The notes below the pieces were generated by a model. The model did no database searches. It was given only the letters and a program-made list of their open reading frames with translations, and was not told the DNA's origin. A stretch of DNA of 64,000 nt. Source: Fimbriimonadaceae bacterium (GTDB lineage: Bacteria; Armatimonadota; Fimbriimonadia; Fimbriimonadales; Fimbriimonadaceae). Where the stretch lies: NCBI GenBank assembly GCA_026129685.1, contig JAHCHO010000001.1, forward strand, positions 62,001 to 126,000, given 5' to 3'. A program made the translations under genes and the position numbers. Of this stretch, positions 26,941 through 50,924 are shown one piece after another (the stretch's first letter is position 1; each line of letters starts with the position of its first letter).

Positions 26941-27017
26941 CGGGGCGTGGCGCAGTTTGGTAGCGCGCTTCCATGGGGTGGAAGAGGTCGCACGTTCGAA
27001 TCGTGTCGCCCCGACCA
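26941..27017 (+). tRNA. tRNA-Pro (GGG anticodon)
   Basis: A complete cloverleaf: acceptor CGGGGCG/CGCCCCG, D-arm GCGC/GCGC, anticodon stem CTTCC/GGAAG around loop ATGGGGT (U33, anticodon GGG), T-arm GCACG-TTCGAAT-CGTGT with a terminal G-U pair, discriminator A and encoded CCA. Its 3' 49 bases are the attachment site of the adjoining island. The intact gene lies on the left boundary. Confidence 0.97.
26969..27017 (+). repeat. Left attachment site (attL)
   Basis: The 49-bp 3' half of the tRNA-Pro gene, starting TTCCATGGGG and ending CCCCGACCA. It is identical to 50625-50673. Sequence identity stops on both sides of the repeat, as expected for site-specific integration. Confidence 0.95.
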
Positions 27018-32388: not shown

Positions 32389-35226
32389 GTGTCCACCCCG
32401 TACCACGCGGCCTTTGCAGCGCATGCGCTGACGAGGCGCAGCCCGTCCGACGACTTCGCGAAGCTTGGCGCGTCGTTGATTAGCGCGACGGTGGACCTCA
32501 ATCCGCACCAGCTTGACGCGGCCCTCTTCGCCTTCAAGTCACCTCTTTCGCGAGGCGTGATCCTCGCCGATGAGGTCGGTCTCGGCAAGACGATCGAGGC
32601 TGGTCTGATTGCGAGCCAGCTATGGTCCGAGAGGCGACGGCGGATTCTCGTAATCTGTCCGACCATCCTGCGGAAGCAGTGGGCGCAGGAGTTGGCGGAT
32701 AAGTTCTTCCTTCCGTCCGTTGTCTTCGACTCAAAGGAGTACAACGCGGCCAGGCGCTCGGGCGACCTGTCGCCGCTCGATCAGAGAGACAAAATCGTGA
32801 TCTGTTCCTACCATTTCGCATGGGCCAAGTCGAGCGAAATTTCCAGGATCGGATGGGACCTTGTTGTCATCGACGAGGCCCACCGACTTCGGAACGTCTA
32901 CAGGTCGTCGAACAAGATCGCGAATGGGTTGAAGTCGGCCGTGTCGGGAAAGCCGATCGCGCTTCTCACGGCGACCCCGCTTCAGAACTCCTTGCTTGAA
33001 CTATTTGGCCTCGTCAGCTTCCTTGACGAGCATCTGTTTGGGAGCCTCGACGCATTTCGCGCACGTTATATGCGTGGGCCCGTGGAGGATCGACAACTTG
33101 CCGAACTGCGTCAGCGGCTCGCTCCGATCTGCCAGCGAACCCTGCGGAAGCAGGTGGTGGAGTTCATCAAATTCACCAATCGCATCCCGATCACGGTCGA
33201 GTTCGCTCCGAACGAGGATGAGCAGCGCCTTTACGAGAGCGTCTCAACCTATCTCCAGCGCGAGAAGCTCCACGCCCTTCCGTCTAGCCAGCGGAAGCTG
33301 ATGACGCTCATCCTTCGAAAGCTCCTGGCAAGCTCCACCTTCGCGATCGCAGGCACGTTGCGCAGCCTGGTCGAGAGACTACGTGACCAGACGGGGATGG
33401 CTGAAGATGTCCTCAGCGATGACTTCGAGTCCTACTCCGCGCTGGCCGAAGAGTGGGAATCGAACGGAGGCACGGCGGCCACAGGCGTCGATCCCGACGT
33501 GATCTCGGAATTGCGGGAGATCATGGACTACGCCCAGCTTGCCTCCTCTATCCAATACAACGCTAAGGGAGAGGCTTTGCTCAAGGGTCTGAGCCAAGGA
33601 TTCGACAAGCTGTCGGAGCTTGGGGCCAAGTGCAAGGCGGTCATCTTCACCGAGTCGAAGCGCACGCAGGGCTACCTTCGCGACGTCCTGGAGAGCAACG
33701 GCTACGCAGGCCGAGTTCTGACCATCAACGGAACCAACTCCGACGATCGGTCAGGGGAAATTTACAGAGCTTGGGTCCAGCGGCACCGTGGATCGCCGAT
33801 TGTATCGGGAAACAAGACGGTCGATCTTCGCGCAGCGCTTGTCGAGCACTTCCGCGACCACGCCGACATACTCATTGCGACCGAGGCGGCAGCCGAAGGA
33901 GTGAATCTCCAGTTCTGCTCCCTGGTCGTGAACTACGACCTACCTTGGAACCCCCAACGCGTGGAGCAGCGGATCGGGCGCTGCCACCGCTACGGGCAGA
34001 CCCACGATGTGGTGGTGATCAACTTCGTCAACTCGAAGAACGCGGCGGATCAGCGGGTCTTCGAGTTGCTCTCCGAAAAATTCCGCCTCTTCGACGGCGT
34101 GTTCGGCTCGTCGGACGAGGTGCTCGGCGCTGTCGAGGACGGGATCGACTTCGAGCGCAGGATCGCCGACATCTACCAATCCTGCCGAACGAAGGACGAG
34201 ATCGAAGCCGCGTTCCAAGAGTTGAGGGAGGAGCTAGACGAGCAGATCAAGGGCCGCCTCCTGAAGACGCGAGCCGACCTGTTCGAGCACTTCGACCAGG
34301 ATGTCCAGGAGAGGCTAAGGATCAGCCACGATGAGGGCCTACGGCAGATAGGGCGACTGGAGCAGCACATGTGGCTCCTGCTTAAGGCGTCGCTGGGGGA
34401 TCGATGCGCCTACGACGACGAGAAGCTCGCACTTCGGCTCGAACACACCCTTCAGGAGCCGACCATGGAGTCAGGTACCTACCGCCTGGTGACAAGGCGG
34501 GAAGGCGGGGACGAGGCGGTGCTCCATCTCGGACACCCACTGATCCAGAACCTCATCGAGAGGGCATCGAGCGCCACGCTTCCTGCTGGAACCGTCTGCT
34601 TCGACTACCATCGGCGTCACGCCCGCCACGGAATTCTGGAGCCCTACATCGGGAAAAGCGGTTGGATGTCGATGCGGGTGTTGACCGTCGAGTCGCTAGA
34701 CGACGAAGACCGCTGCCTATGTGCCGCCTTTACCGACGACGGCGAAGCTCTCCACGTTGAGGCGTGCGAGCGCCTCTTTCAAATTCCTGGGAGCCTCCTC
34801 GATCCTCAGGAACCGACTAGCTGGACACAAGCGTGCCTCCGCGAGGCCCTGGACGCTCAAGCTGCGCGAACGCTGGCCGAGATCGCGGACCGAAACGCGA
34901 AGTTCTTCGGCGAGGAGATGGAGAAGCTCGAACGGTGGGCGGACGACCTGAAGCATGGCCTGGAGACCGAGCTTAAGGACCTGGACGCGAGGATCAAGCA
35001 GGCTGACCGCGAGGCAAGGTCGTGCTCCCGCCTGGAGGAGAAGCTCGCACTCCATCGCGACAAGAAGGAGCTTGAGGGTGAGCGGTCGCGGAAGAGGAAA
35101 GCCCTGTATGAAGCACAAGACGAAATCGATCGACAGAAGGACGAGCTTCTTTCGGCGACCGAGGCGCGTTTGGCACAGAAAACTAGCAACCGTGACCTCT
35201 TGACGATTCGTTGGTCTCTCCGCTAG
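32389..35226 (+). CDS. SNF2-family helicase/translocase
   Basis: A 945-aa superfamily 2 ATPase that would move along double-stranded DNA. Motif I GLGKT (64-68), motif II DEAH (162-165), motif III TATP, and in the C-terminal helicase lobe TEAAAEGVNLQF and QRIGRCHRYGQ. About 200 residues after the core are a coiled coil (ending RQKDELLSATEARLAQK). Its size and type recall DrmD of DISARM and RapA/HepA-like proteins, but none of drmA, drmB or drmC is in the window. GTG start. First gene of a tight five-gene operon with gaps or overlaps of 12, -8, 21 and 3 bp. Confidence 0.9.
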   Translation: MSTPYHAAFAAHALTRRSPSDDFAKLGASLISATVDLNPHQLDAALFAFKSPLSRGVILADEVGLGKTIEAGLIASQLWSERRRRILVICPTILRKQWAQELADKFFLPSVVFDSKEYNAARRSGDLSPLDQRDKIVICSYHFAWAKSSEISRIGWDLVVIDEAHRLRNVYRSSNKIANGLKSAVSGKPIALLTATPLQNSLLELFGLVSFLDEHLFGSLDAFRARYMRGPVEDRQLAELRQRLAPICQRTLRKQVVEFIKFTNRIPITVEFAPNEDEQRLYESVSTYLQREKLHALPSSQRKLMTLILRKLLASSTFAIAGTLRSLVERLRDQTGMAEDVLSDDFESYSALAEEWESNGGTAATGVDPDVISELREIMDYAQLASSIQYNAKGEALLKGLSQGFDKLSELGAKCKAVIFTESKRTQGYLRDVLESNGYAGRVLTINGTNSDDRSGEIYRAWVQRHRGSPIVSGNKTVDLRAALVEHFRDHADILIATEAAAEGVNLQFCSLVVNYDLPWNPQRVEQRIGRCHRYGQTHDVVVINFVNSKNAADQRVFELLSEKFRLFDGVFGSSDEVLGAVEDGIDFERRIADIYQSCRTKDEIEAAFQELREELDEQIKGRLLKTRADLFEHFDQDVQERLRISHDEGLRQIGRLEQHMWLLLKASLGDRCAYDDEKLALRLEHTLQEPTMESGTYRLVTRREGGDEAVLHLGHPLIQNLIERASSATLPAGTVCFDYHRRHARHGILEPYIGKSGWMSMRVLTVESLDDEDRCLCAAFTDDGEALHVEACERLFQIPGSLLDPQEPTSWTQACLREALDAQAARTLAEIADRNAKFFGEEMEKLERWADDLKHGLETELKDLDARIKQADREARSCSRLEEKLALHRDKKELEGERSRKRKALYEAQDEIDRQKDELLSATEARLAQKTSNRDLLTIRWSLR

Positions 35227-35238
35227 CCTTAAGCCGCC

Positions 35239-35451
35239 GTGGAACATAGTACCAAGGACGGAACGCCTAGCAAGGGCTCGCCAAACGACGAGCTTGCCGC
35301 GAAGATCGCAAGCTTGCTCGCCGAGAGAGACTTGATCAGCGCAGGGGCGGTGGCCGAGGTAACACAGGGACTCGTCTCTGGGAAGGCGTCCGCTGAGGAC
35401 TGGAGAAGGTGGGTTGAGCAGCCGCTTGACGAGAAGGCGAACAATGCCTGA
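35239..35451 (+). CDS. Small linker-gene protein of the defence operon (70 aa)
   Basis: GTG start 12 bp after the SNF2 gene; its end overlaps the ATPase start by eight bases. The sequence (NDELAAKIASLLAERDLIS, then AGAVAEVTQGLVSGKAS) looks like a short helical adaptor. No family is recognised. Its preserved position between two large ATPase genes suggests a bridging or inhibitory subunit. Confidence 0.7.
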   Translation: MEHSTKDGTPSKGSPNDELAAKIASLLAERDLISAGAVAEVTQGLVSGKASAEDWRRWVEQPLDEKANNA

Positions 35452-37765
35452 TCGGATCAAGCAGATCGCCCTTTCGAATTTCCGTGGTGCGACGGGCAAA
35501 ACGACGCTTACGTTCAACACGGGAAAGCCGATCGTGCTGCTGTTCGGCGAGAACGGCACGGGCAAGTCAACTGTGCTCGACGCGATCGATCTGATTTGCA
35601 ACCAGTGCCACGGCTCGTTGCAGACGCGAAGCTCGACAAAGGTCAGCGACCTGCCCTCGGTGGGAACGAAGTCGAAGGACCTCAAGGTCGAGCTAGTCCT
35701 TGGGGAAAAGACCTGGACAGGCACGGTTTCGGGCCAGAAGATCACGGTCGATCAGCACCCGTCTCCGACCGCGTACGTTCTGCGACGGAGCCAACTCTCA
35801 ACGCTCGTTGAGAACAAACCCGAAGATCGGTACAAGCGGCTAGCGAAATTCATCGACGTTACGTGCGTTGAGAAGGCGGAGGACACCCTCAGGGCAGCGC
35901 ACCAGTCTGCCGAAGAAGCCTACGACAAGCTCTTTAACAGCCACGCCGATGCTCACACAGCGCTCACGAACCTGTGGGAAGCCGAAGGCAAGCCGAACGC
36001 GTCGGCGACCGATTGGGCGAAGGAGAAGGCGGAACAGGATCAGACCGAACTGGCCGCGCGTTTGGGGCACGCGCAGACCCTGAAAGATGCGCTAACAGCG
36101 GTCAAGCAGCCCAAATCGTCTGCCGCCGACAGCCGCGCCAAGGTCGCGGATCGGGAGCGTGAATTCGCTGCACTATTCGCAACATCGATCGATCCGATCG
36201 GCGGTAGTTCCGATTCGGGAGGATTGGTTGACCTCCTCAAAAGGGCGAAAGCCGCTCTTCCGTCGTTGACAGAACCGTCCAAATGCCCCGTCTGCGAGCA
36301 GGGAGTCGATCAGGAGGAACTCTCTCTGCAACTACAAGCGAGAATCGACGAACTCGCCGCCTTCGATGCGCACAACCTGGCTCTGTCGAACGCTCGCCAG
36401 GCCCTAGAAACGGCCAGAAGCACGGCGAGCACTCAGGAAACGACCTACCTTTCGCAGACCGAGGAGGTCGTGAATGGGTACTATTCGCTCTCACCTGAGA
36501 TGCAGACTAGCCTCGGAGCGGACGAGGCGTTGAGAGCGTTCGTACAGGATCGCCATACGGATCAAGCCTGGGCGAGGGCAGATGCATTGGTTGACGCGCT
36601 CGTCAACGCCAGTCAGGTGCTGGACGACGAAATCACGAGGCTCACTACAGACCAGAACCAGTTCAACGCCATCAAGGGCTACCACGACAATCTCACCCAG
36701 TCGCAGGAATTGCTTGATGAGGCCGAGCAAGTGAAGCAGCGCTTGGACGACGCGCTGAAGCTCGTCAGGGCGACGCGGATCGAGTTCACCCAGAAGATTC
36801 TCGACGAAATTTGCTCGGAGGTGAATGCGCTCTACGACCGCATCCATCCGCAGGAGCCACTCGGTCTGAAGTGCTTCCGTCTCGACCCGAAATTCAAGGG
36901 ATCGCTACACCAGGACGCTCACTTTGAAGGCGTCGAGGACATTGCTCCTCAGGCTTACTTCAGCGAATCTCACCTCGACACCCTTGGCTTCTGCATCTAC
37001 CTCGCGACGGTCAAGTGGGCGAACGACCCGAGCGCGATCCTCGTTCTCGACGACATCTTCACCTCGGTCGATGCGGTCCACATGACCCGCGTCATCGATC
37101 TCTTGACCGAAGAGTCGAAGCACTTCGCCCAGGTGTTCATCGCCACGCACTACCGCCAGTGGAGCGACCACTACCGTTTCTCTGCGGGTGCGGCGAATAA
37201 CGTGGATGTCATCGAACTTCACCACTGGTCGAAGGAGCACGGGATCAGGGTTAGGTCGCCGAAGTTGGCGACCGAGGAAATTCGCCACTATATCGAACCA
37301 GATAACTGGGATCGGCAGATTGTCGGATCGAAAGCGGGCATTTTGCTGGAGCACGCCCTCGACCACCTTACGTTGCTCTACGGTTGCTCGCTTCCACGAT
37401 CGGGTGAGGCGTACACCATCGGAGCCCTCCTCGACGGCTTCAAGAAGACGGGCGCTGTGCTGAAGGTGCACCACACGAGCCAGTCAGAGGCAGGCACGGA
37501 AACCACGGTCGTAGAAGTGAAGGACGTACTCCTGAAGCTTGGCAATATCGCCTTTATCCGCAACCGCGTGGGCTGTCACTTCAACAAGGACGGGCTCAAC
37601 GTTCCCGATCCTCAGGTCGAGGAATTCGCACAACTGACCCTCGACCTTGCCGACGCGCTCACGTGCAAGCATTGCGGCTCACTCCCCGCGCCGAACAAGA
37701 AGACAACTGACGCTTGGCAGTGCGTGTGCAAGAAGACGCTCACCCAACCGCTCGTCAGGCCCTGA
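35444..37765 (+). CDS. Rad50/SMC-like ATPase with zinc hook
   Basis: A 773-aa ABC-type DNA-associated ATPase. Walker A GENGTGKST (35-43); long coiled coils interrupted by a CPVC hook near residue 281; signature-like SESHLDTLG near 506; Walker B ILVLDDIFTSVD near 531; switch histidine in IATHYRQW. After about residue 600 comes a separate C-terminal domain ending in a zinc ribbon, CKHCG...CVCKK. It may sense DNA ends or unusual structures and license nuclease action. The partner nuclease would be Res, encoded two genes on. ATG at 35444 is used; the longer frame overlaps the 70-aa gene more. Confidence 0.85.
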   Translation: MPDRIKQIALSNFRGATGKTTLTFNTGKPIVLLFGENGTGKSTVLDAIDLICNQCHGSLQTRSSTKVSDLPSVGTKSKDLKVELVLGEKTWTGTVSGQKITVDQHPSPTAYVLRRSQLSTLVENKPEDRYKRLAKFIDVTCVEKAEDTLRAAHQSAEEAYDKLFNSHADAHTALTNLWEAEGKPNASATDWAKEKAEQDQTELAARLGHAQTLKDALTAVKQPKSSAADSRAKVADREREFAALFATSIDPIGGSSDSGGLVDLLKRAKAALPSLTEPSKCPVCEQGVDQEELSLQLQARIDELAAFDAHNLALSNARQALETARSTASTQETTYLSQTEEVVNGYYSLSPEMQTSLGADEALRAFVQDRHTDQAWARADALVDALVNASQVLDDEITRLTTDQNQFNAIKGYHDNLTQSQELLDEAEQVKQRLDDALKLVRATRIEFTQKILDEICSEVNALYDRIHPQEPLGLKCFRLDPKFKGSLHQDAHFEGVEDIAPQAYFSESHLDTLGFCIYLATVKWANDPSAILVLDDIFTSVDAVHMTRVIDLLTEESKHFAQVFIATHYRQWSDHYRFSAGAANNVDVIELHHWSKEHGIRVRSPKLATEEIRHYIEPDNWDRQIVGSKAGILLEHALDHLTLLYGCSLPRSGEAYTIGALLDGFKKTGAVLKVHHTSQSEAGTETTVVEVKDVLLKLGNIAFIRNRVGCHFNKDGLNVPDPQVEEFAQLTLDLADALTCKHCGSLPAPNKKTTDAWQCVCKKTLTQPLVRP

Positions 37766-37786
37766 ACGAATACACTGTTTCCGCCG

Positions 37787-39811
37787 ATGCCCGACGACGA
37801 CAAGATTCCGCTCACTTCCGCCGACGTTCACGCCGACCGAATTTCCGCGCTGCGATCCCTCTTCCCCGAGGTCTTCTCTGAGGGCAGGATCGACATCGAG
37901 GCGCTGAGGGAAGCGCTGGGCGAAGAGGTGACCGAATCGGACGAGCGCTTCGGGCTTTCTTGGGTCGGCAAGGCCGAGGCAAAACGCGCAATCCAGACGC
38001 TCAGCACGGGCACTCTCGTGCCCGATCCTGCGGCGTCGGTGGACTTCGAGACCACGGGCAACGTGATCATCGAGGGCGACAACCTTGAGGTGCTCAAGCT
38101 TCTCCAGCGGAGCTACCACGGCAAGGTCAAGCTGATCTTCATCGATCCTCCGTACAACACGGGAAAGGACTTCATCTACCCCGATAACTACCAGGAGGGC
38201 TTGCAGGACTATCTTCGCTTCTCCAATCAGGTCTCCGAAGAAGGGGTGAAGCTCCGCGCCAACGCTGAGACGGACGGCCGCTACCACTCACGGTGGCTGA
38301 GCATGATGCTTCCAAGGCTGTTCCTCGCGCGGAATTTACTGCGCCGCGACGGGGCGATCTTCATCACGATTGACGAGCACGAGTTGCAGAACCTCCTCGC
38401 CGTAATGGACGAGGTATTCGGGCCAGAAAACCGCCTAGGCACAGTTGTTTGGCAGAAGAAATACGCTACGTCGAATGACACAGTAGACCTTTCCTATACG
38501 CACGACTACGTGGTTGTTTATGGTCGGCAACGGGTCTTCAAATCGAAGGGAAAAGCCGAGGCAATCCTGGCGCGGATGCCGAGAACCGAGGCGATGAACA
38601 AGCCGTACAAGAATCCTGATAATGATTCGAGGGGTCGATGGAGACCCGACAACTATAAGTGCAACAAGACGGCGGCCGAGCGTCCCAATCTTTACTATGG
38701 CATCCAGCAGCCGAACACGAAGCGTTTGATTTGGCCGAAGAAGACAAGGGTATGGGCATACGATCAGGAGTCGCATGCGAGAAACGTTGCGGAAAGTCGA
38801 GTCTGGTGGGGCGCAGACGGACTCGGGGAGGTTCCCGCATTCAAGCGGTTTCTTTCCGAGGTAAGCGGACCTGTGGCGGCCACCATTTGGACATGGAGGG
38901 AGTGCGGTCATACCGACGAAGCTCGAAAGGAGCTAATCTCTTTATTCCCCGAATCCACACGTGGATTCGACACTCCTAAGCCCACTCGCCTTCTCCAACG
39001 TATTGTCTACCTAGCTTCGCCTCAGAAGCAACCGACGAATGAGCCCGAGATTATTCTTGACTTCTTTGCTGGCTCGGGAACAACGGGGCATGCGGTCCTG
39101 AAGCAGAACCTTGAAGACGGCGGCAATCGCCAGTACATCCTTGTTCAGCTACCTCAACCCATTGATCGGGCCAAACCCGAGGAAGATGATGAGGATGACG
39201 AGCTAGGCGAAGACATCGAGCAAGTTGGAGACTCGGCGGAAAGCCTGGAGGATGAGGAAGTTGAATCACCCTTCGAGGGCAAAACGTTTGTGCCGAGGAA
39301 CATCGCCGAAATTACGGTTGAGCGAATGCGCCGTGCTGCTCACGTGCTTAAGACCAAGGCTCAACCCAAGCTCACGTTTGAGCATGTGAGAGAAGCTGAC
39401 CTAGGCTTTCGTCTGTTCCGTCTAGCCCCAAGCAACTTCAAGGGCTGGGCTTCCCCAAGTGAAGGCGAGGCGGATAGGCTTTCCCAAGCCCTCCTCGATT
39501 ACACTGAGCACCTTGCGCCCGACGCAGACCCGAAGGCGATCCTGTTCGAAATTCTTCTGAAGTCAGGATTGCCGCTGTCCGCGCAAATCTCGGAAGCGGA
39601 AGTTCCTGGCGGCAAGGTGTTCTCCGTTTCGGGCGGCCTGTTAGCGGTTTCTCTGCAACCAAAAGTCGATCAGGATCATGTGTCCGCAGTGTTGGCGTTG
39701 GAGCCAGTCCGCGCGGTGTTCCTCGACTCCGCGTTCAGCGGGAACGACGCCCTGAAGACCAACGCCCGCTTGGAGGCGAGAGCGGCAGGCATCGAGTTTC
39801 GGACGATCTAG
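37787..39811 (+). CDS. Type III restriction-modification methyltransferase (Mod)
   Basis: A 674-aa beta-class DNA N6-adenine methyltransferase. The catalytic motif DPPYNTGKD lies near residue 120 and the AdoMet motif [12 protein letters not shown] near 426, in the order of type III Mod. The target-recognition region lies between them. A very acidic segment (about residues 465-495, rich in Asp and Glu) precedes a C-terminal domain that probably contacts Res. Modification protects host DNA and sets specificity for the complex. Three bases separate it from the Res gene. Confidence 0.93.
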
Positions 39812-39814
39812 GCC

Positions 39815-42451
39815 ATGAAGCTGAAATTCGAGCCGAACCAGCAGTACCAGCTTGACGCCATCAACGCGGTCGTCGATCTCTTTGAAGGGCAGCCTATGGC
39901 GGGCGGCTCGCTTGAGATTGGACTCAGCACCCCAGGCCAATTGCTCACCGACGTGGGGATCGCTAACTCGCTCAGCCTCGGCGAAGCGACCATCTTGCGG
40001 AACATGCAGGTCGTCCAGACCCGAAACGGCATCTATCCGCCGAACGAGTTATCGGGCTTTGACTTCAGCATCGAGATGGAGACGGGCACGGGCAAGACCT
40101 ACGTGTTCCTGAGAACCCTCTATGAGCTACGGGCTCGGTACGGCTGGAGCAAATTCATCGTCGTCGTCCCCAGCGTCGCGATCCGTGAGGGCGTGCTCAA
40201 GAGCATCGATCTTCTCAAGGGGCACTTCGACACGCTGTACGAGAACCCGCCCGTCGATGCCTGGTCCTATGCCTCGAAGGACGTGTCCAGCTTGAGGAGC
40301 TTCGCGACGAGCAACGCGATGCAGATTCTCGTCATCAACATCGACGCCTTCAACAAGGACACGAACATTATCCAGCAGGAGCGGGAGAGCGGCATCCGTC
40401 CGATCGAGTTCATCCGAAGCTCGAACCCGATCGTCGTCATCGACGAGGCCCACAACTTCACGAAGGAGAGCCGACGCGAGGCTCTGGCGCGGCTCAATCC
40501 CCTCTTCACCCTGCGGTACTCGGCGACTCTGAGCCAACAAGCGGGAGTAACGCCGAACATCCTCTATAAACTCGACCCCGTGAAGGCGTACGACCTCAAG
40601 CTGGTCAAGCGGATCGAGGTAGACAGCGTGCTTGAGGAGCCCGACTTCAACATTCCCCATATCGGGGTGAAGTCGATCAAGGCGACCAAGAAAGAGGTCA
40701 GCGCCAAGCTGGAGATCGATGTTCGGGCCGCTTCAGGCACCGCTCGACGCGAAGTGACTGTGCGCTACGGGAGCGACCTGTTCACGCTATCGAACGAGCG
40801 GGACATCTACCAAGGCTTCATCGTCGGTCAGATCGACGCCTCGAATCGAACCGTCGAGTTCGAGAACGGCAGCGTCCTCGAAGAGGGTCAGTCGATCGGT
40901 GTGCGAGGTGACAGCCTGATGCGCATCCAGATTCGCCAGACGGTCAAGGAGCACTTCGAGAAGGAGCTTAGGGTCTCCCGACTTCCAGAGGGACAGCGGA
41001 TGAAGGTGCTGTCGCTCTTCTTCATCGATCGGGTGGACAACTACGTCCAGGATGACGGGAAGATTAGGCAGTGGTTCATCGAGGCGTACAACGAGCATGC
41101 GGCGAAGGAACGATACGCGGCATTGCCGAAGCTCGCGGTAGAGCAGGTCCACGGCGGCTACTTCACGAAGAAGAAGAAGAGACCTGAGAAGGGAAAGCCT
41201 GCCGAAGAGGTGGCGCTCGACACGTCGGGGGCGACGGCGGACGACAACGAGACCTACCGCTTGATCATGCGGGACAAGGAGAGCCTGCTGGCGCTGGACA
41301 CTCCGCTCCGATTCATCTTCAGCCACACGGCCTTGCGTGAAGGCTGGGACAACCCCAACGTCTTCCAAATCTGCACGCTGAACGAGACCAAATCTGAAGT
41401 CAAGAAGCGCCAGGAGATCGGTCGTGGCCTACGCCTGCCCGTGAGGGAGAACGGTGAGCGGTGTTTCGATCCCTCCGTGAACCTTCTCACGGTAGTCGCG
41501 AACGAGAGCTACGATGACTTCGCGCGAAAGCTCCAGGACGAGATCGAGACGGACACGGGGACGAAATTCGAGGGCCGTGTCGCGAACAAGCGACTCCGAC
41601 AGGAGGCGAGACTCAAGAAGGGGTGGCGCATGGACCCTTACTTCGTCGAGCTTTGGGAGCGGATCAAGCACAAGACCCGCTACCGAGTCGAGTTCGACAG
41701 CGAAGACCTCATTCGCAAAGCCGCCGAAGAGTTCAAGAACACGCCCAAAATCGAGTCACCGAAATTCACGATCAGCAAAGGCGAGCTAAAGACGCAGCGC
41801 GAAGGCGTGGTCGCGGAAACGAAGAGCTTCTCGCAAGTAGCGGAGGAGTACTCGGCTCCGATCCCCGACCTCATCGGCTTCCTGCAACGGGAAACGGAGC
41901 TAACTCGCGGAACTCTTGCCCAAATTCTCATTCGGAGTGGTCGGCTGGCTGAGGTCCACAAGAATCCCCAGCAGTTCCTCGATCAGGCGCTTGGCTCGAT
42001 CCGCAAATCGATGAGCGAGCTTATGGTGAGCGGCATCAAGTACATCAAAATCGCTGGTGGCGAGTACGAGATGCGCGAGTTCGAGGAGCACGAGATCAGA
42101 GGCTATATCGATCGAATGCTAAAGGTCGATCGCTCGATCTACGACCACATCGAGTTCGACTCTCCCGTCGAGGAGGAATTCGCGAAGACTCTCGACGCGC
42201 GAGACGACATCAGGCTCTTCATCAAGATGCCGCCGTGGTTCAAGGTGGACACTCCCCTCGGCACCTACAACCCCGACTGGGCGATCGTCAAGGAGAACGA
42301 CGCGAAGCTCTATCTAGTGCGGGAGACGAAGGGAACGACCGACTGGTTCAGGCTGGACGAGCAAGAGCGCAGGAAGATCAAATGCGGCGAGGCTCACTTC
42401 GACGCGCTCGGCGTAGACTACGAGTGGGTGAAGTCGGCAGCGTCGGTCTAA
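39815..42451 (+). CDS. Type III restriction enzyme helicase-nuclease (Res)
   Basis: An 878-aa subunit. The superfamily 2 motor shows Walker A METGTGKTYV near residue 90, DEAH in VVIDEAHNF near 211, RYSATLS, and the late motif RQEIGRGLRLPV. The C-terminal PD-(D/E)xK nuclease is intact: YNPDWAIV near residue 818 and LVRETKG near 838. With Mod it would cleave DNA having unmethylated sites in the proper arrangement. It ends ten bases from the oppositely oriented DUF262 gene. Confidence 0.93.
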   Translation: MKLKFEPNQQYQLDAINAVVDLFEGQPMAGGSLEIGLSTPGQLLTDVGIANSLSLGEATILRNMQVVQTRNGIYPPNELSGFDFSIEMETGTGKTYVFLRTLYELRARYGWSKFIVVVPSVAIREGVLKSIDLLKGHFDTLYENPPVDAWSYASKDVSSLRSFATSNAMQILVINIDAFNKDTNIIQQERESGIRPIEFIRSSNPIVVIDEAHNFTKESRREALARLNPLFTLRYSATLSQQAGVTPNILYKLDPVKAYDLKLVKRIEVDSVLEEPDFNIPHIGVKSIKATKKEVSAKLEIDVRAASGTARREVTVRYGSDLFTLSNERDIYQGFIVGQIDASNRTVEFENGSVLEEGQSIGVRGDSLMRIQIRQTVKEHFEKELRVSRLPEGQRMKVLSLFFIDRVDNYVQDDGKIRQWFIEAYNEHAAKERYAALPKLAVEQVHGGYFTKKKKRPEKGKPAEEVALDTSGATADDNETYRLIMRDKESLLALDTPLRFIFSHTALREGWDNPNVFQICTLNETKSEVKKRQEIGRGLRLPVRENGERCFDPSVNLLTVVANESYDDFARKLQDEIETDTGTKFEGRVANKRLRQEARLKKGWRMDPYFVELWERIKHKTRYRVEFDSEDLIRKAAEEFKNTPKIESPKFTISKGELKTQREGVVAETKSFSQVAEEYSAPIPDLIGFLQRETELTRGTLAQILIRSGRLAEVHKNPQQFLDQALGSIRKSMSELMVSGIKYIKIAGGEYEMREFEEHEIRGYIDRMLKVDRSIYDHIEFDSPVEEEFAKTLDARDDIRLFIKMPPWFKVDTPLGTYNPDWAIVKENDAKLYLVRETKGTTDWFRLDEQERRKIKCGEAHFDALGVDYEWVKSAASV

Positions 42452-42460
42452 ACACGATTG

Positions 42461-44563
42461 CTAGCCGCCCTCGGCCTCGATTGCCTGGCGCTCGTATGCC
42501 TGTCGGATCAGGTGCATCGCGTCCTCGATCTCGGCGTGGCCGCTAATCGAGGCTTCCACATCACCATTGCCCCACTTCCCAATCCCGCTGATGTCGCGGC
42601 ACATACCTTTCGGATCGTCTACCTCGGTAAAGGGCATGTTGAGGATGAGCACGAGTCGCTTCTTCTGCGGGATCACGTCCACGAAATTCGTGTCGAGCTT
42701 GAAGGCGATGTATATCTTCCTGACCTCCATCCGCACGGAGGCGTCTAGGTTCATCACCCTCTTGCGTAGCTCTTCGAACAGTTCGAGCATCTCGCCATAC
42801 AGGTAGCCCGAGTGCCCCTCGACGGCGTATGACTCTCCGTGGTCAGAGGCGCTCTTGGTCTTCGCCTCGACCAGCATCGACGCGGGAAGCTCGGGCGCGG
42901 GCCAAACTGAGGCGGCCTTGTCCGACAGCCGACGTGCTCGCTTAACGATCTGCTCCTCGTCCCATCGGTCGAGTTGTCCGAGCCCCTCGTTCAGGCGCAG
43001 AGGGCTCTGGGCGAAGCCGCCCTCCATGTCCCGCTTCTCCTTGAACGGCCTGTCGCTGTACTCGCTGTTGTATCCCGTGAGGGTGAGGTTTCCGAGGGTG
43101 TGGAGCAGCCTGCCATGCGCCTCCTTCCAGTTCTCGCCGAGTGCCTCGCGCCACTCGGGACGCAGGTTCTCGTTCTGCGGCAGGATGTGCTCGATGGTGT
43201 AGGACTCGACGCTCGCCCTCTCCTTGCGGCCCTCGTTCTCCAGCTTGTCGAGCATGTAGTTGCGGACGCGGAAGTTGTACACGTCGCGGACCATGAGTGC
43301 CGACTTGAACTCCTCATCGCGAGGGAATCTTCTGAAGCCATCCTTGAGGGCGAGAGCGGCCTCAAGGCTCGGAAGGTAGCGCTCCTTGTCGATCTCCCTG
43401 ACGAGCCCCGCGAAGGTCTTGTTGAGCGAGTTGGTCGGGATTCCGCACACCGCCCTCCTGAACACGTAGCTCTCGACCAGGCGGAGGACGCGGAGGAAGT
43501 CGGCCCTCGACAGCCGTCCCGCCTCGTGGTCCTCGTACACCTCGATCAGGAACGGCGCGGCAACGTCCACGCGAAGGCGGTTGATGTCGTCGAAGGCCGC
43601 CTTCAGGTCAGTGTCAGGCTCCTTCCCGAGCACGACCCGCACGTACAGCCTTGAGAAGCCGTGGAGATCGGACGCGATGCTCTCCATGGCGTCCTCGCCC
43701 GAGACGGTCTGAGCGTGGGTCTTGAAGTCCGCGTAGATGTCGCGCAGGTTCGGAATTCGCCCCGTGCGGACGGTCAGGTAGTCGCGCATGAATGGGTCGA
43801 ACCGCTCCGCGTAGTCGGCCTGGCCGAACGCCTGCTCCATCGGGAACCAGTGGTCCTCGTACAGACGAGACTGCTCCTTCGGCTCAAGGCCCATGAACAC
43901 GTAGTTGCGGATGAGGTCGGCCTGGCTGAGCTTGAGGCCCGTGGCGTTGAGGCTCTCGAAGATGAGTTGCGGATTGTCGTGGTCGCGGTCGAGGGCGATG
44001 TCCACGATGATTAGCTTCTGGAGCCCTTCGTAAACGGTCTCCAGATCGGTGCTGGACTTCGCCAACTGTTCGGCAAAGAATCTGTGGTTCTCCACGATGC
44101 GGTGCGACGGCTTCTCGGGCAATTCGCGGTCCTCGACGATCCTCGTCAGCGTCTCTCGGTCCGATTGCGTCAGCAGGAGCTTGAACAGAAGGTCGCCGTC
44201 CTCCTCGGAGTTGAAGAGGAAGTAGTTCTCCAGCTTGCGCCGCGAAATTCCTGCGTCGGCGTTTCTGGTGTCGATGGCCCTCCCGAGCGCCGTCAACAGG
44301 AGCGTCAGTGTCGTGAGCCGCTGCTGGCCGTCGATCACCAGAAGCTGCGGCACGGACGATTGGTTGTAGAGGCCGCGAGCGATGTAGACGATGGAGCCGA
44401 CGAAGTGCCCCTTGGCGTTGCCGTCCCTGCCGACCGCAACGATGTCCCGCCACAGTTGCTGGCACTGGTCCAGCCTCCAGTCGTAGGTCCGCTGGTAGAT
44501 CGGGATCACGAACTGTTTGGGGTTCTGGAGGAACTTCAGTAGGTTGGCTTCGACGGCCTTCAT
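42461..44563 (-). CDS. GmrSD-like DUF262/DUF1524 restriction protein
   Basis: A 700-aa single-chain relative of the type IV modification-dependent system GmrSD. The DUF262 half has IPIYQRTYDW near residue 25 and VIDGQQRLTTLTLL near 95. The DUF1524 HNH-like half has YTIEHILPQN, LHTLGNLTLTGYNS and FKEKRDM. The last 110 residues (YLYGEMLELFEELR onward) look like DUF5655. It would act on phage DNA carrying modified or glucosylated bases. It is convergent with Res and under separate control. Confidence 0.9.
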   Translation of the reverse strand: MKAVEANLLKFLQNPKQFVIPIYQRTYDWRLDQCQQLWRDIVAVGRDGNAKGHFVGSIVYIARGLYNQSSVPQLLVIDGQQRLTTLTLLLTALGRAIDTRNADAGISRRKLENYFLFNSEEDGDLLFKLLLTQSDRETLTRIVEDRELPEKPSHRIVENHRFFAEQLAKSSTDLETVYEGLQKLIIVDIALDRDHDNPQLIFESLNATGLKLSQADLIRNYVFMGLEPKEQSRLYEDHWFPMEQAFGQADYAERFDPFMRDYLTVRTGRIPNLRDIYADFKTHAQTVSGEDAMESIASDLHGFSRLYVRVVLGKEPDTDLKAAFDDINRLRVDVAAPFLIEVYEDHEAGRLSRADFLRVLRLVESYVFRRAVCGIPTNSLNKTFAGLVREIDKERYLPSLEAALALKDGFRRFPRDEEFKSALMVRDVYNFRVRNYMLDKLENEGRKERASVESYTIEHILPQNENLRPEWREALGENWKEAHGRLLHTLGNLTLTGYNSEYSDRPFKEKRDMEGGFAQSPLRLNEGLGQLDRWDEEQIVKRARRLSDKAASVWPAPELPASMLVEAKTKSASDHGESYAVEGHSGYLYGEMLELFEELRKRVMNLDASVRMEVRKIYIAFKLDTNFVDVIPQKKRLVLILNMPFTEVDDPKGMCRDISGIGKWGNGDVEASISGHAEIEDAMHLIRQAYERQAIEAEGG

Positions 44564-49572: not shown

Positions 49573-50535
49573 TTAGCGGGATCGGGCGCGTTTCGTCAGG
49601 TGATCCACCACGCCACAACGCTTGTGGACCTCGGCAACGTCCTGCTCCGTTTGGGCCAAGTACTTCTTCAGAGTCGCCAAATCGGAGTGCCCCATAAGGT
49701 GCTGGAGCGAATAGATGTCTGCTCCATTTCTCAGCATCTGGAGGGCAGTCGTTCGGCGAGCGCGATGTGCGTGGACGTGCACGCCTGTTTCCTTGGAGAG
49801 CTTCTCGAACAAGCTACGAATGCCGTGCCGCGTCAATGCGCCCCGTTTTCCTATCCATAGAGGATCGTCGGCGTCTAGACCCGCCGCGCGGATGTATCGC
49901 ACAAGAGTGCACAGCGTGGTCGATCCGACCCGTGTAATCCGATCCTTTCGGCCCTTGCCCAAGCGGATCAACAATGCGCCCGTGTCCTGGTCGAGGTCGG
50001 AGACCTTCAAGCTCGCCGACTCTGCGAGCCGAATTCCCGAGTCGAGCATCGTGTAGACGAGGGCACGGTTACGGAGGCTCTCCAGATCGTTCCCCTGCAA
50101 CGCTCGGTCGAGTACAGCGATGTCGTTGGGTTCGAGAGCGGGCAGAAGGGCCTTGTCGAGACGTGGCGGGCTGAGCCGCTTCATCGGCGAGACTTCGATG
50201 TACTCCTCGCTCTCGCACCAGCGGAAGAAGGTTCGAAGCTTTACGAATATTGTGTGGACGGCCTGGACCTTCATTCTCTTGCCGTTGCGGGTCGGAGTGT
50301 CCTGGACTGTAGCTAAGAACGCCCGCATGTCGGAGGCGGCGATCTCCGCCAAGGGAGTCTCGGCACCGAGGAACGCGATGAGCTTCCCGACCGCATACTT
50401 GAACATGTAGCTCGTCTTCGGGTCGCTCCCCTTGCTCTTGTGGTGAAGAAGGAAATCCTGAAGGGCGTCGTCGAGGCTCGGCATGAGGGGCGTTTTCTGG
50501 CCCGAAATCCGCTTATGGAAGCGCTGAATCGGCAT
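49573..50535 (-). CDS. int: Tyrosine recombinase (element integrase)
   Basis: A 320-aa phage-type integrase. The N-terminal SAM-like core-binding domain spans residues to about 120. Catalytic residues are visible: Arg in SGIRLAES, Lys in LGKGRKDR, HxxR in HAHRARRTT, His in LMGHSDLATL, and the nucleophile Tyr in KKYLAQT. It would join the element at the tRNA-Pro 3' end and excise it. AGGAG precedes the ATG at 50535; the longer frame reads back through the attachment site and is not used. It lies 89 bp from attR and reads inward. Confidence 0.95.
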   Translation of the reverse strand: MPIQRFHKRISGQKTPLMPSLDDALQDFLLHHKSKGSDPKTSYMFKYAVGKLIAFLGAETPLAEIAASDMRAFLATVQDTPTRNGKRMKVQAVHTIFVKLRTFFRWCESEEYIEVSPMKRLSPPRLDKALLPALEPNDIAVLDRALQGNDLESLRNRALVYTMLDSGIRLAESASLKVSDLDQDTGALLIRLGKGRKDRITRVGSTTLCTLVRYIRAAGLDADDPLWIGKRGALTRHGIRSLFEKLSKETGVHVHAHRARRTTALQMLRNGADIYSLQHLMGHSDLATLKKYLAQTEQDVAEVHKRCGVVDHLTKRARSR

Positions 50536-50570
50536 GTCGTTCTCCTGGCTTCCATCCGATTGCCGCCTCT

Positions 50571-50585
50571 CTAGGTTCAGATTCG
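50571..50585. repeat. Possible integrase arm-binding site
   Basis: CTAGGTTCAGATTCG, similar to the inverted sequence at 27021-27035 just inside the left end (12 of 15 positions). Only two imperfect copies are seen, so this is tentative. Confidence 0.25.
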
Positions 50586-50624
50586 CCTCTTCCATGAGAA
50601 CGGTCGAGGCGGTCACCTCGGTCA

Positions 50625-50673
50625 TTCCATGGGGTGGAAGAGGTCGCACGTTCGAATCGTGTCGCCCCGACCA
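50625..50673 (+). repeat. Right attachment site (attR)
   Basis: Exact 49-bp copy of the 3' part of tRNA-Pro, without the 5' half of the tRNA. It marks the right boundary. The next 251 bp up to the GH5 gene hold no supported gene. Confidence 0.95.
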
Positions 50674-50924
50674 ATTCGCGGCCGCGGGTCCGCTCCGCCT
50701 CCAGTTGAGCGATTTCGAGCGGCTCCGGCCCACGTTCCCTTAGTCGTCCCGAGGACCGCTACGGCGATGCAATGACCTGTCGTTGCCGTATCACAGTCGA
50801 TCATCGCGGTGTCGGCATGGTCGCGCGCGACGAACTTGCCGGTGCACGCAAGTCCGCATCGCATCGCTCGAGCGCCCAGTTTCCACGGATGCCCGTGGCG
50901 GAACGCACCGCGCCGCGCACCTCA

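Follow-up and report, generated by a model that had tools for sequence, protein, structure and literature searches.

The five-gene cassette studied here raises the question of whether an SNF2 helicase, a 70-aa protein, a Rad50-like ATPase and the Mod and Res subunits of a type III restriction-modification (RM) enzyme form one machine, or are separable parts that share an operon. The cassette lies in a 64,000-nucleotide stretch of Fimbriimonadaceae DNA, referred to below as the window. It is genuine, beyond chance: the five-gene order, with homologous genes, is found again in several phyla. It is best read as three genes plus two, a core of SNF2, Mod and Res and a pair made up of the 70-aa protein and the ATPase.

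The operon and the island that carries it

The ORFs of the cassette and their junctions were all verified, and are as follows.

32389..35226, + strand: SNF2 helicase/translocase, DrmD/RapA-like, core gene 1; GTG start, 945 aa; Pfam SNF2-rel_dom and Helicase_C
35239..35451, + strand: 70-aa protein, partner of the ATPase; GTG start; a homologue lies upstream of most full-length ATPases
35444..37765, + strand: ABC/Rad50-like ATPase with zinc hook; ATG start, 773 aa; SMC_N/AAA_23
37202..37762, + strand: C-terminal domain of the ATPase, a probable HEPN RNase, followed by a zinc-ribbon tail; RNRVGCH, with R706, N707, G710 and H712
37787..39811, + strand: type III Mod, adenine methyltransferase of the beta class, core gene 2; 674 aa; N6_N4_Mtase; PADLOC MTase_III, 599 bits
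39815..42451, + strand: type III Res, SF2 helicase and PD-ExK endonuclease, core gene 3; 878 aa; ResIII and RE_endonuc (121 bits); PADLOC REase_III, 881 bits

All five ORFs are intact, and the junctions between them measure, in order, +12, -8, +21 and +3 bp. The ATG of the ATPase at 35444 sits within the end of the 70-aa gene, the overlap being ATGCCTGA; start/stop overlaps of this type are common among translationally coupled genes. We took this ATG as the start of the ATPase; the ORF list begins it at a TTG, 35414, which is a mechanical start only. An earlier note on this DNA had placed the five genes at these positions in a single operon, which we judge to be right, and the motifs of all four enzymes that it named are intact. 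SNF2 carries GLGKT, DEAH, TATPLQN and QRIGRCHRYGQ. The ATPase carries GENGTGKS, the hook CPVC (residues 281-284), SESHLDTL, LDD (535-537) and a CKHC...CVC tail. In Mod, DPPY (120) precedes FAGSGT (427), and Res has TGTGKT, DEAH and PD...ETK (820).

An integrative island at tRNA-Pro, satellite-like and about 23.7 kb long, most likely carries the cassette as cargo, since 49-bp repeats bracket the stretch, which also holds an integrase and phage-type genes:

26969..27017, + strand: left attachment repeat, at the 3' end of tRNA-Pro; 49-bp exact direct repeat
50625..50673, + strand: right attachment repeat, an exact copy; 49-bp exact direct repeat
49573..50733, - strand: tyrosine integrase of the island; Phage_integrase, 89 bits

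The tRNA-Pro(ggg) gene occupies 26941-27017, and GC content dips from about 0.65 to about 0.60 across 28 to 52 kb. The integrase adjoins the distal repeat copy, and the phage-type genes of the island include Dam with an HTH, a Gp157/Gam-like gene and a Sak4-like gene; none of the island genes checked was a capsid or tail gene. Immediately beyond Res, and convergent with it at a distance of 9 bp, lies a GmrSD type IV restriction gene (42461-44563; GmrSD_N, GmrSD_C and DUF5655; PADLOC Orf5/HEC-06). Two genomes of the same genus have the tRNA-Pro and lack SNF2; an empty integration site was not established in them, because the flanks of the one inspected were not syntenic.

The ATPase and its C-terminal domain

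A full-length AlphaFold2 model of the ATPase (pLDDT 82.7) gave Rad50, SMC and the Lamassu protein LmuB as its best Foldseek matches, and the CPxC hook is invariant among its relatives. The 187 C-terminal residues end in a CxxC...CxC ribbon, which is missing from one subclade. The earlier description of a zinc-hook, SMC-like ATPase with a zinc ribbon thus holds for the motifs and is incomplete, the protein having in addition a probable HEPN RNase tail.

This domain has no match to any HEPN family in Pfam, and sequence searches of Pfam and the PDB gave nothing convincing. Its AlphaFold2 model (pLDDT 86.7) yielded nothing significant in Foldseek, the best HEPN match having an E value of 0.62 and a probability of 0.60. 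Upon realignment with VIA-align, about 20 of the top 28 matches were HEPN/HepT toxins, Csm6 or Abi proteins; the best, to the HEPN protein 2hsb, reached Z 9.7 over 126 residues at 3.7 A, where Z of about 10 can be reached by unrelated helical bundles. The motif R-N-x-x-G-x-H is invariant in 13 of 13 aligned C-terminal domains although the remainder varies (31-44% identity). In all 13, RNRVGCH and its counterparts conform to the pattern Rx4-6H with a polar residue after the R, the signature of most HEPN RNases (PMC3710099). Together, motif and model point to a probable HEPN RNase. That the domain instead binds nucleic acid or mediates dimerisation, leaving the pair as a DNA sensor or loader only, seems to us unlikely: the fold evidence is moderate, non-catalytic HEPN domains exist (PMC3710099) and two relatives lack the domain, but such a role sits poorly with four residues held invariant in so variable a sequence.

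Searches of Pfam, NCBIfam, PADLOC and PHROGs assigned the 70-aa protein to no family. A homologue lies directly upstream of 20 of the 24 full-length ATPases; the other four are the most distant, and the small ORF upstream of them is unrelated. The pair is found without SNF2 or Mod-Res on Hymenobacter and Fibrella plasmids, and likewise outside the core in L018 and L033. In the latter two loci the ATPase relatives (L018, 7616-5802; L033, 9201-11246) have a small partner and no HEPN-type C-terminal domain. On two Hymenobacter plasmids (L027, 14386-17748; L028, 14419-17793) the pair is followed by an uncharacterised protein of about 640 aa and then by one of about 475 aa, which in L027 has an MBL fold. 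No match to the ATPase was found in phage records.

A constant core with exchangeable cargo

Relatives of SNF2 were collected by a plasmid search, which gave 50 records (E 1e-60), and by a genome search with an alignment of the SNF2 C-terminus, which gave at least 564 matches, of which 80 were kept. ORFs were called in all loci and labelled by profiles grown from the window proteins. A genome-wide scan based on one ATPase sequence alone returned zero matches, its peptide patterns being too specific.

Among the 61 SNF2-family loci with at least 8 kb of downstream sequence, Mod is present in 60 and Mod together with Res in 59, fractions that are estimates, as the set was picked by SNF2 similarity and includes a few near-copies. 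In one exception, L039, the next annotated gene after SNF2 is a DEAD/DEAH helicase, incomplete at the edge of the sequence examined. In the other, L045 (G127, L017/L045), SNF2 and the pair are followed by an HD-domain gene, with no Mod-Res. The HD-domain protein and a 188-aa protein stand there in place of Mod-Res (L017/L045, 6088-8005), a possible alternative core. Two more loci from the window's own family have SNF2, a slot, Mod, a further slot, and then either Res or a protein of similar size. The SNF2-family loci span at least 14 phyla: Armatimonadota, Planctomycetota, Pseudomonadota, Bacillota, Elusimicrobiota, Spirochaetota, Nitrospirota, Thermodesulfobacteriota, Verrucomicrobiota, Chloroflexota, Acidobacteriota, Peregrinibacteriota, Ignavibacteriota and Bacteroidota. 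Since their Mod-Res partners belong to at least three type III lineages (PADLOC 03634/03647, 03636/03648 and 03646/03654), several lineages share a single SNF2 family. Relatives of the window Res also exist without SNF2, and 266 plasmid records match Res (E 1e-30) as against 50 for SNF2 (E 1e-60).

SNF2 and Mod are separated by a slot. Depending on which set is counted, 13 to 17 loci lack any gene of at least 120 aa there. Elsewhere its cargo is AIPR/AbiU, AAA_21 with DUF4276 (PADLOC HEC-01, PARIS-like), Schlafen AlbA_2, SIR2 with HerA, Abi_2, GmrSD, DUF2130, BRO-N, or AAA with a subtilase. Many of the cargo genes other than the ATPase belong to defence or toxin families. Another slot lies between Mod and Res and contains RhuM, YhcG/DUF1016 PDDEXK, AAA with HNH, and others. 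The ATPase occupies the SNF2/Mod slot in 15 loci including the window, nearly always accompanied by the 70-aa partner, in seven phyla (Armatimonadota, Pseudomonadota, Nitrospirota, Thermodesulfobacteriota, Chloroflexota, Ignavibacteriota and Elusimicrobiota). In 11 of the 15, Mod and Res follow on the same contig. On a Rhizobium plasmid, just after SNF2-Mod-DUF262-Res and convergent with it, there is a more distant ABC ATPase preceded by a 74-aa ORF of its own (L036, 19190-21912).

Cargo in the SNF2/Mod slot is freely exchanged, and the evidence for this is direct. Loci L105 and L120 share 92% DNA identity to the end of SNF2, and again from the 3' part of Mod through Res; between the matching parts one has AIPR and the other the 70-aa protein and ATPase. 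The middle of Mod differs too, and is presumably the target-recognition region. In three pairs of loci (L112/L114, L105/L120 and L077/L097), SNF2 and Res are near-identical and Mod is divergent, an apparent swap of that region. Mapped onto the SNF2 tree, the ATPase cargo calls for 10 changes for 11 rows, 7 of them forced by well-supported branches. With shuffled labels the mean is 10.5 changes, and 212 of 500 shuffles were as low; because the count on the tree is close to the shuffled mean, the ATPase cargo is scattered as if at random.

The arrangement could also reflect co-residence alone, a free-standing Lamassu-like or Rad50-like pair having come to rest beside an ordinary type III RM system in a defence island. 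The best PADLOC matches of the ATPase are indeed to LmuB (77 bits), the pair does occur alone, and the island bears a GmrSD gene as well. We nevertheless find this account improbable, as the pair recurs in the same operon slot in at least seven phyla, above the expectation from proximity within islands, and neither LmuA nor LmuC adjoins it. As to membership in Lamassu itself, the SMC-like ATPase is a point of likeness, but the probable effector of the cassette is fused to the ATPase, and neither the LmuA nuclease nor LmuC found a match among the neighbouring genes.

The earlier note had proposed an extended type III system of five parts, and had named separate occurrence of the parts as what would speak against it. 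The order that it described, SNF2-small protein-ATPase-Mod-Res, is conserved and recurs across phyla, being exact in the window, L046, L079 and L120 and nearly so in L067 and L117. The parts are not equal: SNF2-Mod-Res is constant (59/61), whereas the pair is exchangeable. Separate occurrence is half borne out, Mod-Res being found without SNF2 and the pair without either. A single five-component machine, in which the ATPase would sense DNA ends and gate Res and the 70-aa protein would bridge the two, is accordingly very improbable: despite the tight packing, with its -8 bp overlap, and the repeated order, most SNF2-Mod-Res loci lack the pair, AIPR replaces it in near-identical cores, it exists without the core, and it carries its own probable effector domain. 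The suggestion that DNA-end sensing controls Res is thus unsupported, the pair being swappable and having a probable HEPN RNase tail of its own.

Known systems and a proposed mechanism

Mod and Res have the families, order and catalytic motifs of type III RM (EcoP15I-like), with a beta-class Mod (DPPY before FxGxG) adjoining a Res that has SF2 helicase and PD-ExK parts. By sequence the cassette is a type III RM system, with SNF2 as a constant upstream gene and a slot for inserts in addition. With class 1 DISARM it shares a DrmD-like SNF2 and an adenine methylase in one operon. DISARM loci are defined by drmA, drmB and drmC, none of which was found among the ten genes scanned in and around the cassette; Res, by contrast, is present. 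The window SNF2 scores 680 bits against DISARM_DrmD_b (cut-off 950) and 282 bits against DrmD (cut-off 610). Across the SNF2 family the DrmD_b scores are 648-722 bits against the same cut-off of 950, and the last 270 or so residues are unmatched by the model. The earlier characterisation of a DrmD-like SNF2 without drmA/B/C is thus borne out, and with SNF2 under the cut-off and drmABC absent the cassette falls outside DISARM. BREX resembles it in that its operons combine a modification core with embedded backup effectors (PARIS, HEPN, Schlafen, HNH or GmrSD) that are interchangeable (PMC12839542), but the core here is type III Mod-Res with SNF2, and the preferred slots are SNF2/Mod or Mod/Res. 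The literature searched gave no description of SNF2-Mod-Res as a system, and an earlier account of the ATPase pair may exist; one paper lists an SNF2 helicase alongside a type III RM system in a Cronobacter element (PMC12757443).

The closest functional parallels to the pair are RloC and PrrC, Rad50-like ABC ATPases with a C-terminal HEPN RNase (PMC3710099, PMC2610378, PMC3874168). PrrC is silenced by its linked RM enzyme (PMC2610378, PMC3710099, PMC3874168) and acts as a backup within type I loci (PMC3710099); RloC is activated by DNA breaks, and its zinc hook is regulatory (PMC2610378, PMC3874168). The cassette ATPase shares with them the Rad50-like ABC ATPase, the zinc hook (of RloC), the predicted C-terminal HEPN-type domain and the link to an RM locus (PMC2610378, PMC3710099). 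It differs in having a 70-aa partner, and an Rx5H motif in place of a spaced R-E-H triad. The anticodon-nuclease triad of RloC is R-x3-E...H (R692, E696 and H737; PMC2610378). That spacing is absent here, where R706, N707, G710 and H712 are invariant, and the match to AAA_13 is weak (18.7 bits against a cut-off of 36); by these tests the ATPase lies outside RloC, though the pair would work like it. By analogy with PrrC and RloC, the pair would most likely be a second-line RNase, for which BREX (PMC12839542) and PrrC in type I loci (PMC3710099) offer precedents of backups housed in a modification operon.

We therefore regard the cassette as probably a two-layer defence operon on a tRNA-Pro island, comprising a restricting core and an RloC-like backup RNase pair. 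In the first layer, Mod would methylate self DNA, and unmethylated invading DNA would be recognised and cut by Mod-Res. SNF2, a dsDNA motor, may aid the movement of the complex along DNA or its clearance and recycling; this role in translocation or recycling of Mod-Res is suggested by family and gene order only. In the second layer, the SNF2/Mod cargo, the zinc-hook ABC ATPase and its 70-aa partner would form a sensor complex, and the HEPN domain would stay inactive as long as infection neither damages DNA nor disables the core. Once triggered, the domain would cut RNA of the host (tRNA, if it acts as RloC does) and halt the cell. The RNase activity, its trigger and the abortive outcome are all put forward here as predictions.

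A broader reading is possible, and we advance it tentatively, with some doubt: SNF2-Mod-Res would form a class of type III restriction in its own right, unnamed and very widespread, with preferred operon slots for interchangeable suicide modules. The 70-aa/ABC-HEPN pair would then be a new module of toxin type, its small protein informing a Rad50-like RNase of the state of the core. If this is true, many of the systems annotated as plain type III RM would be three-gene systems that include a motor of unexplained use and have a second line of defence built in. Near-identical cores that differ in cargo (for example Aestuariivirga against Methylobacterium and Bosea) amount to natural swap experiments, and such swaps would address the question raised by PrrC, whether restriction complexes guard linked suicide modules.
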